A DNA stretch of 64,000 bases, from the NCBI RefSeq assembly GCF_000148725.1, contig NZ_GL476320.1, positions 124,001 through 188,000 of the forward strand, read 5' to 3'. Made by a program: the position numbers and the translations under genes. How positions within the stretch are numbered: position 1 is the first letter of the stretch; each line of letters starts with the position of its first letter. The notes beneath the pieces were generated by a model. That model saw nothing but the letters and a program-made list of their open reading frames with translations. It was not told where the DNA came from and made no database searches. Positions 5,021-12,354 of the stretch are shown piece after piece. Origin of the DNA: Roseibium sp. TrichSKD4 (GTDB taxonomy: Bacteria; Pseudomonadota; Alphaproteobacteria; Rhizobiales; Stappiaceae).

Positions 5021-5106
5021 ACGGGGCTCCAGTTTTCGTTTTCAGTCTTCTCTAAACCAAATTTGGGTCGGTGTTCGCGAAAGTCGCGCCGGTTCTTCGG
5101 TCAAGT

Positions 5107-5153
5107 TGTATCAGTATGTATCAGGCAGCGGATTCGCGACAGTCGGCGACAGT
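5107..5153. promoter_or_regulatory. Two sets of 10-bp-spaced direct repeats, candidate response-regulator sites
   Basis: TGTATCAG occurs at 5107-5114 and again at 5117-5124. GCGACAGT occurs at 5136-5143 and again at 5146-5153. Each pair has exactly one helical-turn spacing, the usual arrangement for OmpR-family dimers. They lie between the divergent regulator (start 5020) and EF-hand gene (start 5251). Confidence 0.55.
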
Positions 5154-5250
5154 TCCGCCCTTTTTGGCGGATAGTTCTGCCACAAGTCGCACCTATCTTG
5201 AGAGTGTCGCAGGGGCAGCCTGTTTAACAAACCCGATGGAGATTATTGGG

Positions 5251-6201
5251 ATGACACCGTTCAAGAAGATGACTTTGGCCCTTTTGGCCGCAACTGTTGC
5301 CGGCACAGCGGTCACTGCAAGCGTTGCTGTTTCTGCGCGTGAAGGAAGCCAATGGGGAGAAGGTAGCAACTTCGGTTGGCACATGCGTGGCGGCAGACGC
5401 GGCGGACAATTGTTCGACCGGTTCGATGCCAACGAAGATGGCTCAATCTCTCAGGAAGAAGTGGATGCGCAAGCCGCAAGCCTGTTTGCAGAAGCCGATG
5501 CAGACCAAAACGGCATCGTCACTCTGGATGAATTCAAGGTCCAGTTCCTCGCCAAATCAGATCAAATGCGCATTAAGGCATTCCAACGGATCGACCGTGA
5601 TGGAGATGGAAGCGTCAGCCAGGAAGACTTCAACAAGCTCTCCGACCGTATTTTCTCCCGCATGGATCGCGACGACGACGGCGTGATCGAGCTGAAGATG
5701 CGCGGTGAACGCGGCAAGCGCAAAGCCGAAGCCGGTGAAAAAGGTGCCGAGGGCAAAAAGCAGCGTCATGCCGACAAGGACCGTGGCGAGCGCGGCGGCA
5801 AACATCATGGCCGTCGTGGTCGTGGCCCGATGAAGATGCTCTTTACAACCTTCGATCAGAACGCCGATGGCAAGGTCACCCGTGAAGAGTTTGAAACCGT
5901 GCGCGGCGAACTCTTTGCATCCGCAGATACCAACGGTTCGGGAAGCTTTGATCTGGAAGGCTTTTCCAATATCTGGGCCACCCTGAACGAAGACCGCGTG
6001 GTGCGTATGTTCCAGTCTCTTGATGCTGACGGCGATCTTGGCGTCACAGCCGAAGAGCAGCAAACCAAAACCGCTAATCTTGTAAGCCGGATGGACCGCA
6101 ACAATGATGGCGTCATCACCAAGGCGGACTTGAAGCGCGGCAAGTGGAAGTGGGGTCGTCACGGTAAAGGCCATGACCGCGGCGAGGGCAACGACAACTG
6201 A
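5251..6201 (+). CDS. Secreted multi-EF-hand calcium-binding protein
   Basis: 316 aa with an N-terminal signal peptide (MTPFKKMTLALLAATVAG...) and about eight EF-hand-like loops, among them DANEDGSISQEE, DADQNGIVTLDE, DRDGDGSVSQED, DQNADGKVTREE and DRNNDGVITKAD; the others are degenerate. A very basic Lys/Arg/Gly linker (about residues 150-190) splits the loops into two halves. Probable role is calcium binding or sensing in the periplasm. The start at 5251 is set by GGAG 9 bases upstream; an in-frame extension to 5071 would run through the regulatory repeats. It is divergent from a two-component system that may control it. A clear terminator follows the gene. Confidence 0.88.
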   Translation: MTPFKKMTLALLAATVAGTAVTASVAVSAREGSQWGEGSNFGWHMRGGRRGGQLFDRFDANEDGSISQEEVDAQAASLFAEADADQNGIVTLDEFKVQFLAKSDQMRIKAFQRIDRDGDGSVSQEDFNKLSDRIFSRMDRDDDGVIELKMRGERGKRKAEAGEKGAEGKKQRHADKDRGERGGKHHGRRGRGPMKMLFTTFDQNADGKVTREEFETVRGELFASADTNGSGSFDLEGFSNIWATLNEDRVVRMFQSLDADGDLGVTAEEQQTKTANLVSRMDRNNDGVITKADLKRGKWKWGRHGKGHDRGEGNDN

Positions 6202-7909: not shown

Positions 7910-9040
7910 ATGAGCGAACGTATCCGCGAATTTCTCCGTCGACGTGACGAAGACGGCCCGTGCGTTGTCGTTGATCTCGACATTGTGCGCGACAACTACC
8001 ACGCCTTTGCCCGCTCCCTGCCGGACACATCCGTCTACTACGCGGTGAAAGCCAATCCGGCGCCGGAAATCCTGAGCCTTCTGGAAAGCCTCGGCTCCTG
8101 CTTCGATTGCGCGTCCGTGGGCGAAATCGAAATGGTGCTTGCAACCGGCGCATCAGCTGACCGGATTTCCTACGGAAACACGATCAAGAAGGAAAAGGAC
8201 ATTGCCAAAGCCTATGCGTATGGGGTCCGCCTCTTTGCCGTGGACTGTGTCGAGGAAGTCGACAAGATTGCCCGTTCTGCGCCGGGAAGCCGCGTCTTCT
8301 GCCGCGTCCTGTGCGACGGCATCGGTGCTGAATGGCCGCTCTCTCGCAAATTCGGATGCGATGCAGACATGGCCCCGGACGTGCTCGAATACGCCCACCG
8401 GCTCGGCCTCCAGGCATACGGTGTCTCCTTCCATGTCGGCTCCCAACAAGCCAACCTCGAAGCGTGGGATCTCGCTCTCGCCATGGCAGCCGGGGTCTTC
8501 AAGGAAATGGCGCTTCGCGGGATCGATCTGAAAATGGTCAACATGGGTGGGGGCTTCCCAACCCGTTACCTGAAAGACGTTCCCGGCGTGCCTACCTATG
8601 GTACTGCGATCTTTGAAGCGCTGTGCAAGCATTTTGGCAACCGTCTGCCGTCCACCATCATTGAGCCGGGCCGCGGCATGGTGGGCAATGCGGGCATGAT
8701 TGAGGCTGAAGTTGTTCTGATTTCCAGAAAGTCTGCAGATGACGAAATCCGTTGGGTTTACCTCGACATTGGCAAGTTCAGTGGTCTTGCTGAAACCATG
8801 GACGAAGCCATCCGCTACCCGATCCGCACGCCCAAGGACGGTGATCGGACTGCGCCGTGCGTTTTGGCGGGGCCGACCTGTGACAGTGTCGATGTGATGT
8901 ATGAAAAAACGCCGTATGAGTTGCCGGTCAGCTTGTCCATTGGTGACAAGATCCTGATTGAGGCCTGCGGAGCTTACACAACGACCTATTCAACGGTCAG
9001 CTTCAACGGCTTTGCGCCCTTGGCTTCTCACGTTATCTGA
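7910..9040 (+). CDS. speF: Ornithine decarboxylase (alanine racemase fold)
   Basis: Converts ornithine to putrescine with PLP in the cytosol. 376 aa, the usual length for the alphaproteobacterial fold-III lysine/ornithine decarboxylases. PLP Lys47 lies in YYAVKANPAPE. Also visible are FDCASVGEIE, the SFHVGSQ His, the glycine loop NMGGGFP, EPGRGMVG, and the second active-site segment TCDSVDVMYEK near residue 324. The ATG at 7910 follows GGAAGGGG at 8 bases; a TTG at 7892 overlaps that Shine-Dalgarno and is rejected. It is followed by homospermidine synthase, which consumes putrescine, though a hairpin between them suggests separate or partly uncoupled transcription. The symbol follows alphaproteobacterial usage and the leader RNA name. 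Confidence 0.93.
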   Translation: MSERIREFLRRRDEDGPCVVVDLDIVRDNYHAFARSLPDTSVYYAVKANPAPEILSLLESLGSCFDCASVGEIEMVLATGASADRISYGNTIKKEKDIAKAYAYGVRLFAVDCVEEVDKIARSAPGSRVFCRVLCDGIGAEWPLSRKFGCDADMAPDVLEYAHRLGLQAYGVSFHVGSQQANLEAWDLALAMAAGVFKEMALRGIDLKMVNMGGGFPTRYLKDVPGVPTYGTAIFEALCKHFGNRLPSTIIEPGRGMVGNAGMIEAEVVLISRKSADDEIRWVYLDIGKFSGLAETMDEAIRYPIRTPKDGDRTAPCVLAGPTCDSVDVMYEKTPYELPVSLSIGDKILIEACGAYTTTYSTVSFNGFAPLASHVI

Positions 9041-9096
9041 TGACATTAGGCGGATAGGCGCGCCGGAATTTACCCGTCAAATATCAATAAATTTGC

Positions 9097-9119
9097 AAAA
9101 GCGCATTAGGTGCGCTTTT
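9097..9119 (+). terminator. Terminator after ornithine decarboxylase
   Basis: Perfect 9-bp stem AAAAGCGCA (9097-9105) / TGCGCTTTT (9111-9119) with a 5-base loop, ending in Ts. It separates ornithine decarboxylase from homospermidine synthase. Confidence 0.75.
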
Positions 9120-9183
9120 CTTGCGTTGCTGTGTGAATCGATTGCACAGCCTGATTGGATGCAGCAGGAACGGGACCCAATTC

Positions 9184-11160
9184 ATGATCGACGACAATAA
9201 CGAAACAGGCCCTAAGTCACCTCGCACACGGAGAACCGCTGGTACGGCAACGAGAAGAACGCGCAGTACCGCGTCAAAACCGGCTGCAGAAAAATCGACG
9301 CCAGCAAGCCCTGAAACGACGAAGGCACCAACGCGTACACGGCGCACGGCATCGACAAAACCAGCTGCAAGCGCATCTTCTGCAAGCAAGACAGCTACGC
9401 CAGCCACATCTGCATCTGATGTGGAAACACCGTCGAAGGCACCAGCAAAAACCACACGCACACGCGGTTCGGCCACGACCGTTCAAAAGCCAGCGACTCA
9501 GAGAACAACTCGACAGGCAGCGAGCCAGTCAGCGTCCAAATCTCCACGTCGGACAACCAGCAAGCCTGCCAGCAAAGCAGCTTCGTCTGCGGAAAATAAA
9601 TCGACAGCCAAGACTGGAGCGGCGAAGACAACTACGGCGAGGGCCACGCCCGCCAAAGCGCCAGCCGCCAAGGCAAAGCCTGCTGCCGGAACCACACGAA
9701 CACGCAAGCCCGCAGCCAAGACAGCGCCTTTGGCCAGAACCCGTCAGGCGAAGAAGGCTGCACCAGTTGAAAAAGCCTGGCCGAAGCACGGCACAATAAC
9801 TGGCCCGCTGGTCATGATCGGATTAGGATCCATCGGTAAGGGAACCCTACCACTCATTGAGCGTCACTTCGATTTTGATGCATCGCGTTTCACGGTTATT
9901 GATCCGGTTGATACCGATGCCAAGCTGGTCACCGACAAGGGCTATCGCTTTGAGAAGGTCGGACTGACCCCGCTTTTGACAGAAGGCGAGGGGCAGGGAT
10001 TTGTCGTGAATCTGTCGGTCGACACATCGTCGCTTGATCTGATGAAACTCTGCCGCAAGCTCGGTGTTCTTTACATCGATACGGTCGTGGAGCCGTGGCT
10101 CGGCTTTTATTTCAATGAAAACGCGTCTGCTGCAGAGCGCACCAACTATGCGCTGCGCGAAACTGTTCGCAAGGAGCGAAAAAGGAAACCCGGCGGCACA
10201 ACAGCTGTATCCTGCTGCGGCGCCAATCCGGGCATGGTGTCATGGTTCGTCAAACAGGCACTTGTTGATGTCGCTGCCGAATGCGGTTTGGAATTTGATG
10301 TTCCGGAGTCCCGCAAGGGCTGGGCGAAGCTGATGAAAAAGGCTGGTGTGAAGGGAATTCACATTGCCGAGCGGGACACGCAGCGTTCCAAAGAGCCAAA
10401 ACCGATGGACGCCTTTTGGAACACTTGGTCCGTCGAAGGCTTTCTGTCTGAAGGGTTTCAACCGGCAGAACTTGGTTGGGGCACACACGAAAAGTGGAAG
10501 CCGAAAAACGCCAAGAGCCACAAGAAGGGCTGTGACGCTGCGATTTATCTGGAGCAACCGGGCGCAAGTACGCGCGTGCGGACGTGGTGCCCAACCCCCG
10601 GCGCTCAATACGGTTTTCTGGTCACCCACAACGAAGCCATCTCAATTGCCGATTACTTCACGGTCAAGGACGGCAAGAAGGTCAAGTATCGCCCCACTTG
10701 TCACTACGCTTATCACCCGGCAAATGTTGCGGTTCTGTCCTTGCACGAAACCTTTGGGTCAGCTGGCAAGATACAGCAAAAACTGCATGTTCTGGATGAA
10801 AGCGAAATTCAGGATGGCGCAGATGAACTGGGCGTTCTGCTCTATGGTCACGACAAGAATGCCTATTGGTATGGCTCCCAGCTGACGATTGAGGAAACCC
10901 GAGAATTGGCCCCGTTCCAGAACGCAACAGGACTGCAGGTCACATCTGCGGTGATCGCTGGCATGGTCTGGGCACTTGAAAACCCGGAAGCTGGTATCGT
11001 GGAAACCGACGATATGGACTTCAAGCGTTGCCTTGAAATCCAAAAGCCATATCTTAGTCCGGTGAAAGGCTACTTCACCAACTGGACCCCGCTGGATGAT
11101 CGTCCGGGCTTCTTCAAGGAAGACCTCGACACCTCTGATACCAAACGTCAGATGAAGTGA
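9184..11160 (+). CDS. hss: Homospermidine synthase with histone-H1-like N-terminal extension
   Basis: NAD-dependent synthesis of homospermidine from putrescine. The catalytic part starts near residue 199 (GPLVMIGLGSIGKGTLPLIE, a Rossmann glycine motif) and carries the family hallmarks NLSVDTSSLDLM, YIDTVVEPW, AVSCCGANPGMVSW, HIAERDTQ, NTWSVEGFLSEG, TPGAQYGFLVTHNEA and ELGVLLYGHDKNAYW. The first ~198 residues are low complexity, rich in Lys, Ala, Thr, Pro and Arg with repeated TRRTA/KPA units, like H1-type or AlgP-type tails. That is not part of known homospermidine synthases (about 480 aa). Compared with the family as I recall it, a loop after DKGYRF is about nine residues shorter. The ATG at 9184 follows GGGA at 7 bases. 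An IS begins just after the stop. Confidence 0.92.
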   Translation: MIDDNNETGPKSPRTRRTAGTATRRTRSTASKPAAEKSTPASPETTKAPTRTRRTASTKPAASASSASKTATPATSASDVETPSKAPAKTTRTRGSATTVQKPATQRTTRQAASQSASKSPRRTTSKPASKAASSAENKSTAKTGAAKTTTARATPAKAPAAKAKPAAGTTRTRKPAAKTAPLARTRQAKKAAPVEKAWPKHGTITGPLVMIGLGSIGKGTLPLIERHFDFDASRFTVIDPVDTDAKLVTDKGYRFEKVGLTPLLTEGEGQGFVVNLSVDTSSLDLMKLCRKLGVLYIDTVVEPWLGFYFNENASAAERTNYALRETVRKERKRKPGGTTAVSCCGANPGMVSWFVKQALVDVAAECGLEFDVPESRKGWAKLMKKAGVKGIHIAERDTQRSKEPKPMDAFWNTWSVEGFLSEGFQPAELGWGTHEKWKPKNAKSHKKGCDAAIYLEQPGASTRVRTWCPTPGAQYGFLVTHNEAISIADYFTVKDGKKVKYRPTCHYAYHPANVAVLSLHETFGSAGKIQQKLHVLDESEIQDGADELGVLLYGHDKNAYWYGSQLTIEETRELAPFQNATGLQVTSAVIAGMVWALENPEAGIVETDDMDFKRCLEIQKPYLSPVKGYFTNWTPLDDRPGFFKEDLDTSDTKRQMK

Positions 11161-11202
11161 CTCATATTTGGGCTTCCGGTTTTGTTGCGAATATGATTCC
11201 AG

Positions 11203-11227
11203 ATGGCAAACGATGGGAGTTTGCCAT
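11203..11227 (+). promoter_or_regulatory. Hairpin that buries the transposase start codon
   Basis: Perfect 9-bp stem ATGGCAAAC (11203-11211) / GTTTGCCAT (11219-11227). The right arm includes the first two bases of the ATG at 11226 and the region where a ribosome would bind. Transcripts entering from the upstream gene would expose the full hairpin and be poorly translated, a device known from other insertion sequences. Confidence 0.6.
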
Positions 11228-12286
11228 GGGAGCCGCGATACCGCTTCGAGATGACTTTGACGGTTGTACCCTTCGCCGGTTGGCGAGGGTGTGCCGGGAC
11301 GCCAAACAGACCCGTCGCCTTTTGTCATTGGCGGTGATCTATGATGGGGGGAGCCGTTCGGACGCAGCTCATATTGGCGGAGTGACGCTCCAAATCATTC
11401 GCGATTGGGTGCTGCGTTTCAATGCTTCTGGTCCCAATGGTCTGAAGGATACGCCCAAGTCAGGTCGCCCCTCAAAACTTGACGAGCAGCAGCGTCGTGC
11501 GTTGATCGAGATTGTCGAACGAGGCCCGTATCCATCGGTGGATGCAGTGGTACGTTGGCGCTTGAAGGATCTCGCTGCGTGGATCCTGTCTGAATTTGGC
11601 ATTGTCGTTGACGAGCGTACCGTATCGCGGGAGCTGAAGAATGCGGGTTATCGGCGTCTGACGGCCCGGCCGCAGCATCCGGCGCAAAACGAGTTTGCCG
11701 TCGAGGATTTTAAAAAAGCTTCCCAGCCGAACTGGCGGAAATCGGCAATCAGCTTGAAAGCGGCACCCCGATAGAGGTTTGGTTTCAGGACGAGGCGCGT
11801 GTGGGTCAAAAGACCAAGATCACAAGGCGATGGGCAAAACGCGGGACAAGGCCGCGGGCCCCCAAGGATCAGCGGACAAAGTCAGCATGGATATTTGGGG
11901 CCATCTGCCCGGAACGGGGTGTCGGTGCTGCGCTCGTCCTTCCCAAGTGCAACATCATGGCCATGCAAATGCATCTTCAGGAAATCTCGTCGCAAGTCGC
12001 TCCGGGAGCCCACGCCGTTGTCATCCTTGACCAGGCTGGCTGGCACACATCTGGCAAACTCGACATTCCCAACAACATTACCCTTCTCCCATTGCCACCG
12101 AGGTCTCCCGAATTGAACCCGGTCGAGAACCTATGGCAGTTCATCAGGGATAACTGGCTGTCAAACCGGGTCTTCAAATCCTACGAACAAATCATCGATA
12201 TCTGTTGCCGCGCATGGAACAGGTTAATTGAACAACCATGGACCATCATGTCCATCGGAATGCGAGATTGGGCCCATCGGTTCTGA
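11226..12286 (+). CDS. IS630-family transposase, two frames joined by -1 frameshift
   Basis: DDE transposase. Frame one (11226-11774) gives the helix-turn-helix region: MGAAIPLRDDFDGCTLRRLA, IGGVTLQIIRDWVLRFN, SGRPSKLDEQQR, VDERTVSRELKNAGYRRL and ARPQHPAQNEF. The catalytic half continues in the -1 frame: WFQDEARVGQKTKITRRWAK, VILDQAGWHTSGKL and SPELNPVENLWQF, containing the expected D, D and E. The switch fits the run TTTTAAAAAAGC (11708-11719): reading K-K then slipping one base back gives S-F-P-A-E-L-A-E-I, which restores the family sequence. Programmed frameshifting at an A-run is common in this family, so the gene may be active. A decayed copy is the alternative. The ATG at 11226 lies inside a hairpin. 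Confidence 0.85.
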
Positions 12287-12354
12287 ATTTTGACGGTTGG
12301 TATGACCCGTGGCAGTTCAAGAACATTCTTGTGCGGTAGCCGTCATCAGCCCGA

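Follow-up and report, generated by a model that had tools for sequence, protein, structure and literature searches.

A polycationic, histone H1/AlgP-like N-terminal tail on homospermidine synthase in Roseibium and its family

Introduction

Polyamines act chiefly as ligands of nucleic acids and polyphosphate, and the site within the cell at which they are synthesized is usually taken as unimportant. Basic N-terminal extensions are carried by eukaryotic aminoacyl-tRNA synthetases, where they raise the affinity for RNA. The closest described bacterial counterparts to the protein studied here are those with KPAA-type domains. AlgP (AlgR3) of Pseudomonas aeruginosa has 25 perfect repeats in a region of 154 residues, is reported to bind DNA and associates with polyphosphate granules, whose even spacing is lost when the domain is removed, while the domain of the Pseudomonas putida phasin PhaF is believed to attach to DNA and to position granules (PMC9239181). 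The enzyme itself, homospermidine synthase (HSS), is represented by that of Blastochloris viridis (BvHSS; PDB 4plp, EC 2.5.1.44), for which Asp94, Glu117, Tyr123, Asn162, Trp229, Glu237, His296 and Glu298 are described as active-site residues (PMC4725965).

Here we describe an HSS from Roseibium sp. TrichSKD4, encoded in a stretch of 64,000 nucleotides that we call the window. What appears to be new is the combination: a known bacterial enzyme with an AlgP/H1-like arm, the likeness being one of composition and of selection on charge. Among the titles and abstract openings listed by keyword searches of the open-access literature, none describes such a tail on HSS, although tails described under other names may escape such searches.

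Results

HSS is encoded in the window by an open reading frame of 658 residues that begins with ATG (9184-11160, plus strand; Table 1). A preliminary description of this DNA had reported a Lys/Ala/Thr/Pro/Arg-rich stretch ahead of the Rossmann glycine motif, and its frame, coordinates and composition stand, with the ATG at 9184 and 197 residues ahead of AWPKHGTITGPLVMIGLGSIG. The ribosome site that it called good is only fair, since most long-tailed relatives have the stronger GGAG. Its premise that known HSS start near the motif holds for HSS outside the family of Roseibium sediminis (as delimited by the genome tool; Stappiaceae by NCBI taxonomy).

Table 1. Features of the HSS locus, in window coordinates
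Feature	Position	Strand	Basis
PLP-dependent ornithine/diaminopimelate/arginine-type decarboxylase gene	7910..9040	+	PF02784 E 3.9e-55, PF00278 E 5.3e-13
Possible ribosome-binding site	9166..9175	+	AGGA and GGGA, 14 and 8 nt ahead of the ATG
N-terminal H1/AlgP-like polycationic tail, residues 1-197	9184..9774	+	Composition, relatives, dN/dS, charge constraint, pLDDT
HSS catalytic part as far as the IS junction	9775..11139	+	Sacchrp_dh_NADP and Sacchrp_dh_C domains
Site of 9 missing residues (LTPENYEEV-type in relatives)	9964..9972	+	Alignment; helix start after the third Rossmann strand
IS630-like element cutting off the HSS C-terminus	11139..12302	+	Inverted ends, TGA flanks, transposase domains
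Replacement C-terminus TKRQMK and stop	11140..11160	+	Encoded within the IS end
Stranded original HSS 3' end, PWQFKNILVR and stop	12307..12339	+	Pattern match, sequence beyond the IS

Two Pfam domains lie above cut-off, PF03435 (Sacchrp_dh_NADP, residues 210-342, E 7.5e-28) and PF16653 (Sacchrp_dh_C, residues 346-629, E 5.1e-33). No NCBIfam model matches the protein, and neither a Pfam nor an NCBIfam model matches the tail itself. Residues 198-653 align with BvHSS (E 6e-214), and the equivalents of all eight active-site residues, located by manual count along the 4plp alignment, are common to both proteins. Judged by its sequence, the window protein is a bacterial-type NAD-dependent HSS. Compared with BvHSS, it adds the 197-residue tail before the motif and is without nine Rossmann-helix residues and the C-terminal PWQF segment.

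The decarboxylase gene lies directly upstream of HSS, with 143 nt between them, and would be the likely supplier of putrescine for the enzyme. Where the retrieved flank is long enough to contain the entire gene, a full-length decarboxylase match precedes HSS in every family locus (31 of 31), and none was found in the 10 family loci with a flank of just 264-906 nt. In R. sediminis, a GNAT acetyltransferase gene (PF00583; L002:3314-3865) sits between the two. This gene is missing from the window (gap 9041-9183) and, by gap length, also from several relatives, and gap lengths suggest a gene at this position in many others. We considered acetylation of tail lysines by the neighbouring GNAT protein and left the idea because its gene is absent, by gap length, from the window and six long-tailed relatives.

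The window tail is made up largely of small and basic residues (45 Ala, 39 Thr, 23 Lys, 23 Ser, 20 Arg and 19 Pro among 197), with nine Asp/Glu and no aromatics. AlphaFold gives residues 1-195 a pLDDT of about 30 and no secondary structure, and on this model the tail is intrinsically disordered. It is therefore long, disordered, rich in Lys, Ala and Pro and poor in aromatic and acidic residues, as are H1/AlgP-like domains. Acidic residues fall mostly within the first 12 tail positions (75 of 137 over 31 tails, with the window counted in and L101 excluded). The repeats noted in the preliminary description are present at the protein level, where KPAA occurs four times, but not at the DNA level, where Tandem Repeats Finder reports none in the window tail.

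HSS is present in 58 of 87 genomes of the R. sediminis family. Our rule assigned a start in 57 of these; the remaining locus, L096, is cut by a contig end yet bears the same kind of tail. The N-terminal extension is at least 18 residues long in 55 of the 57 and reaches 100-412 residues in 31, with two proteins (L135, L136) having none. Net charge per residue is at least 0.10 in 46 of the 57 relatives and below 0.10 in 11, among them two negative and two tailless cases, so short extensions are not uniformly basic. In the relatives' tails of at least 100 residues, by comparison, it lies between 0.16 and 0.24 in all 31. In the long-tailed clade, most proteins begin with an MTDD/MTDE-like sequence, preceded by GGAG.

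A tree of 77 HSS cores places the window protein as sister to that of R. sediminis (support 100/95), within a clade of 35 (100/98) whose tails are all at least 54 residues long. The sister tail itself has 54 residues against 197 in the window, and tail length has therefore changed between the two. The single fusion event implied by the preliminary description gives way to a family trait, given the extensions of at least 18 residues in nearly all members. We infer that the tail originated within the R. sediminis family, at first as a short leader, and that its greatest lengthening took place in the Roseibium clade (54-412 residues). Tail length initially seemed to follow genome size (Spearman 0.79 across 57 genomes, 0.59 within 33 long-tailed ones), but the relation is weak after phylogenetically independent contrasts, both as a correlation (r 0.39, p 0.003 on raw length; 0.26, p 0.05 on log length) and by rank (0.23, p 0.09, and 0.13, p 0.33), and we base no conclusion on it.

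Outside the family, HSS matches occur in 159 of 297 genomes of the order, 64 of 289 of the class and 66 of 398 of the phylum, sets that overlap and include a few fragments and weak matches. Among named genomes, we took the best 80 of 349 relatives. A readable motif was found in 77 of these loci, and K/A/P-rich tails occur in both Roseibium ones (R. aquae and R. sediminis) and were seen in none of the other 75. A further 82 loci were fetched from outside the family, of which two were repeats, leaving 80 distinct; most were chosen for long open frames, so the sample favours finding tails, and none has a long K/A/P tail running from a start with a ribosome site. Short basic leaders occur in three of the 80, L223/L241 (MMARTAKKAAAPARRKVAGKAAGAAKAAYRK), L227 (MAKKTARKPAAKK) and L239 (MARKAARKTASRK), all from distant alphaproteobacteria. 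Because their HSS are 53-55% identical to that of the window, such leaders seem to have evolved repeatedly, apparently independently of the family tail.

In another three loci (L213-L215, from G414, G540 and G636), HSS lies in one uninterrupted frame behind an upstream protein (810 residues in L213, 815 in L214). The upstream protein of L213, the one searched, matches BrkB (PF03631), a membrane protein. The junction is conserved and AGGAG stands ahead of an internal ATG, and the arrangement may represent either HSS fused to a membrane anchor or two genes that overlap without an intervening stop, the second having its own start. The other 74 outside loci have a start codon near the beginning of homology. 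GC-rich open frames ahead of the true start (L140, L142, L211, L212 and others) can be R/A/P-rich by chance, so tail composition alone is no proof of a tail; conservation and selection are.

Selection was assessed in pairs of relatives. In the long tails of close relatives, most changes fall at third codon positions. Of the 12 pairs with tails of more than 150 residues, 11 have a dN/dS of 0.14-0.39; the exception, L110/L114, has very few changes and gives 0.61, while cores give 0.02-0.08, with the invalid L095/L138 core pair set aside. Seven pairs with tails of 28-68 residues, too short to judge, span 0 to 1.06. DNA alignments of the tails of 11 pairs contain no out-of-frame codon. Among the 45 tails longer than 40 residues, Tandem Repeats Finder detected arrays in 23, with a period divisible by three in 74 of 74 arrays, most commonly 15 nt.

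The charge of the tails is conserved as well. Single-step substitutions that change charge number 32 of 240 in 11 pairs, three of which share L083 and two L110, against 75.5 expected from the codons. With DNA alignments of eight non-overlapping pairs, the count is 27 of 205 against 64.8 (p 8e-10), where the expectation gives transitions a weight of 2 and supposes no further bias. No other result here argues as strongly for a role of the positive charge as this depletion. By these substitution patterns, the tail is translated and its positive charge is under selection. Together with the relatives and the AlphaFold model, they support the earlier proposal of an H1/AlgP-like polycationic tail on HSS. 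Among relatives, we found no conserved start near residue 190 behind sequence free of coding selection; the start with a ribosome site sits at the beginning of the tail, which is under purifying selection for both sequence and charge.

The window copy is damaged in two places. The loop of about nine residues that the preliminary description thought missing is indeed absent, the window core having 461 residues against 473-475 in 56 of 57 family relatives (by our own core boundary; the 57th, L138, runs into unknown bases). Among 58 aligned family cores, the gap is confined to the window, where CTGACCCCG looks like the remnant of two short direct repeats. The helix affected spans residues 123-131 in the AlphaFold model of the intact R. 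sediminis protein and is reduced to 262-265 in the window model; both models are poor across much of the C-terminal half, so we take nothing further from them.

The second lesion had been overlooked. In 56 of 57 relatives, HSS ends with DPWQF and five to six more residues; the window protein ends in SDTKRQMK, its last ten residues being lost and replaced because an IS630-like element sits there. Both the intact Rossmann helix and the DPWQF C-terminus, present in 56 of 57 relatives, are therefore missing from the window protein. The element has TGA on each side (11136-11138 and 12303-12305) and a transposase in two frames, 11157-11774 and 11801-12286 (PF13565/PF13592 and DDE_3 PF13358), and a similar plasmid gene is annotated as an IS630 family transposase. 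The point at which the two frames (within 11157-12286) diverge lies close to six consecutive A (TTTTAAAAAAG); this stretch may serve for programmed frameshifting, or the gene may simply be broken there. Beyond the element, the original end of HSS matches its pattern without mismatch at 12307-12329, where 0.01 chance matches would be expected at up to three mismatches.

With this second site of damage, the window copy may not make polyamine at all, and we consider it probably impaired or inactive on the strength of its two lesions. Any loss of function would be recent, because point substitutions show little decay: the core differs from that of R. sediminis by a dN of 0.067 at a dS of 1.39, and 2 of 213 family-invariant sites are changed. 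At sites invariant in the Roseibium clade, 5 of 265 are changed, the second highest count of 35. Otherwise, the changes may be tolerated, or the nine-residue gap may be an assembly error. A second HSS may lie elsewhere in the genome of the strain, beyond the window.

Similar tails occur on other proteins. A search of 11 genomes for an exact KPAA-type DNA pattern gave matches in 39 places, 30 of them loci. Besides HSS, they include DNA topoisomerase I, which bears the tail at its C-terminus in five genomes of the 11 (L166, L171, L178, L180, L182), a Clp-type ATPase in two (L164, L190), a DEAD-box helicase and a DUF3141 protein (L183). Four loci (L161, L163, L172, L179) were rejected as chance frames by their appearance, and L162 looks like another kind of repeat. 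A homology search with the L083 tail in seven genomes recovered that tail itself and one other protein, a class II aldolase of G064 (L160, PF00596); it did not find the HSS tail of G064, so such searches miss much. The aldolase has a C-terminal tail of more than 100 residues that is rich in KPAA-type units, so metabolic enzymes other than HSS can bear such tails too. Since a Clp-type ATPase, a DUF3141 protein and a class II aldolase are among the bearers, the tail need not mean nucleic acid.

Discussion

The HSS tail resembles several known basic domains and matches none of them fully. Like AlgP, it is K/A/P-rich and disordered, with four exact KPAA units in the window and 35 in L088. However, the AlgP domain is C-terminal on a small helical protein, whereas the HSS tail stands on an enzyme, and the window tail is richer in Thr and Arg. 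DNA binding is reported for AlgP and is putative for the HSS tail. PhaF carries a KPAA-type domain on a phasin, and no phasin or granule domain is matched by Pfam in the window HSS. The DNA topoisomerase I of the same genomes has the same kind of lysine-rich tail, but at the C-terminus and on an enzyme whose substrate is DNA. Aminoacyl-tRNA synthetases likewise place a basic disordered arm on an otherwise conserved enzyme; they act on RNA, whereas for HSS nucleic acid is a ligand of the product alone.

We think it reasonably probable that these HSS carry a translated, disordered and charge-selected H1/AlgP-like arm that putatively tethers the enzyme to a polyanion. In our model, the flexible arm of each subunit, with some +10 to +90 charges, would act electrostatically to hold HSS on nucleoid DNA, on RNA or ribosomes, or on polyphosphate. 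Synthesis of homospermidine could then take place at the polyanions that require it, with the enzyme adding a fixed counter-charge of its own. In the window strain, the tail is intact but the catalytic domain has lost a helix segment and its conserved C-terminus. Such a tether to DNA, RNA or polyphosphate is our best guess at the role of the tail, because of the granule behaviour of AlgP and the other tail bearers. The company that the tail keeps makes DNA the first candidate, with polyphosphate and RNA as candidates too; since the KPAA protein AlgP associates with polyphosphate granules, polyphosphate or another polyanion would fit as well as nucleic acid.

Several other explanations have to be weighed. 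Translation could start near residue 190, with the upstream frame open by chance, as HSS of other families begin there, the window has an in-frame TTG 27 residues before the motif and long chance frames precede HSS elsewhere. Yet no ribosome site turned up at this TTG in a motif scan, and an untranslated upstream frame is ruled out by the starts of relatives, the purifying selection measured as dN/dS and the retention of frame, which makes this start exceedingly improbable. It is also conceivable that the tail is translated but functionless, a disordered N-terminus that is harmless because it lies well away from the active site, and that was produced by slippage in A/K/P-rich codons that duplicate easily. 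Tail length does vary widely, about half of the longer tails contain tandem arrays, dN/dS exceeds the core value severalfold in long tails and unrelated proteins bear similar tails. Against this stand the more than twofold depletion of charge-changing substitutions in both sets of pairs, dN/dS below 1 in 12 of 12 long-tail pairs, a charge density that stays even across 100-412 residues and the retention of extensions in 55 of 57 relatives, and we regard a mere by-product as unlikely.

If the arm is a tether, its target could be polyphosphate or PHA granules, as for AlgP and PhaF, or ribosomes and RNA, and not DNA. The AlgP study, in which removal of the KPAA domain perturbs granule spacing, points this way (PMC9239181), as does the presence of similar tails on a DUF3141 protein and a class II aldolase, which shows that they are not confined to DNA enzymes. 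Polyamines are, moreover, counter-ions of all these polymers. But HSS matches no phasin or other granule domain, and DNA topoisomerase I is the commonest other bearer among the loci read, so an exclusively non-DNA target is in our view a tentative possibility. A separate question is whether the window HSS is a dying gene, its tail a relic without meaning for this strain, and here the case seems evenly balanced. The gap unique to this copy, the lost C-terminus, the absence of the GNAT gene found between decarboxylase and HSS in R. sediminis and the number of changed clade-invariant sites all suggest decay, but there is no stop or frameshift within the frame, dN is low relative to dS, family-invariant sites are nearly all kept and the catalytic residues are retained.

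It is tempting to speculate further that in this family HSS has become a two-in-one chromosome-dressing factor, a polyamine-making enzyme whose arm would coat the nucleoid (or polyphosphate) and thereby supply a large polycation along with the small one. Arm length would be adjusted to genome or polyanion load, a relation to genome size that survives in this boldest reading alone, and in strains such as that of the window, the arm might be kept though catalysis is failing. We consider this scenario quite improbable. The tether itself is open to experiment: with a histone-like arm that reaches 412 residues and is under selection for charge, polyanion-localised polyamine synthesis and its importance become testable, and the natural series of lengths, from 0 to 412 residues on a near-constant core, is a ready-made experiment.

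Two minor observations concern other sequences. In G049 (contig C16, L138), HSS matches extend to about query residue 367 and then meet unknown bases, and the last part of HSS matches some 112 kb away on the opposite strand; this split is probably a scaffolding error, and possibly a rearrangement. Elsewhere in the window, positions 5071-6201 encode a protein in which several EF-hand-like acidic repeats can be seen by eye.
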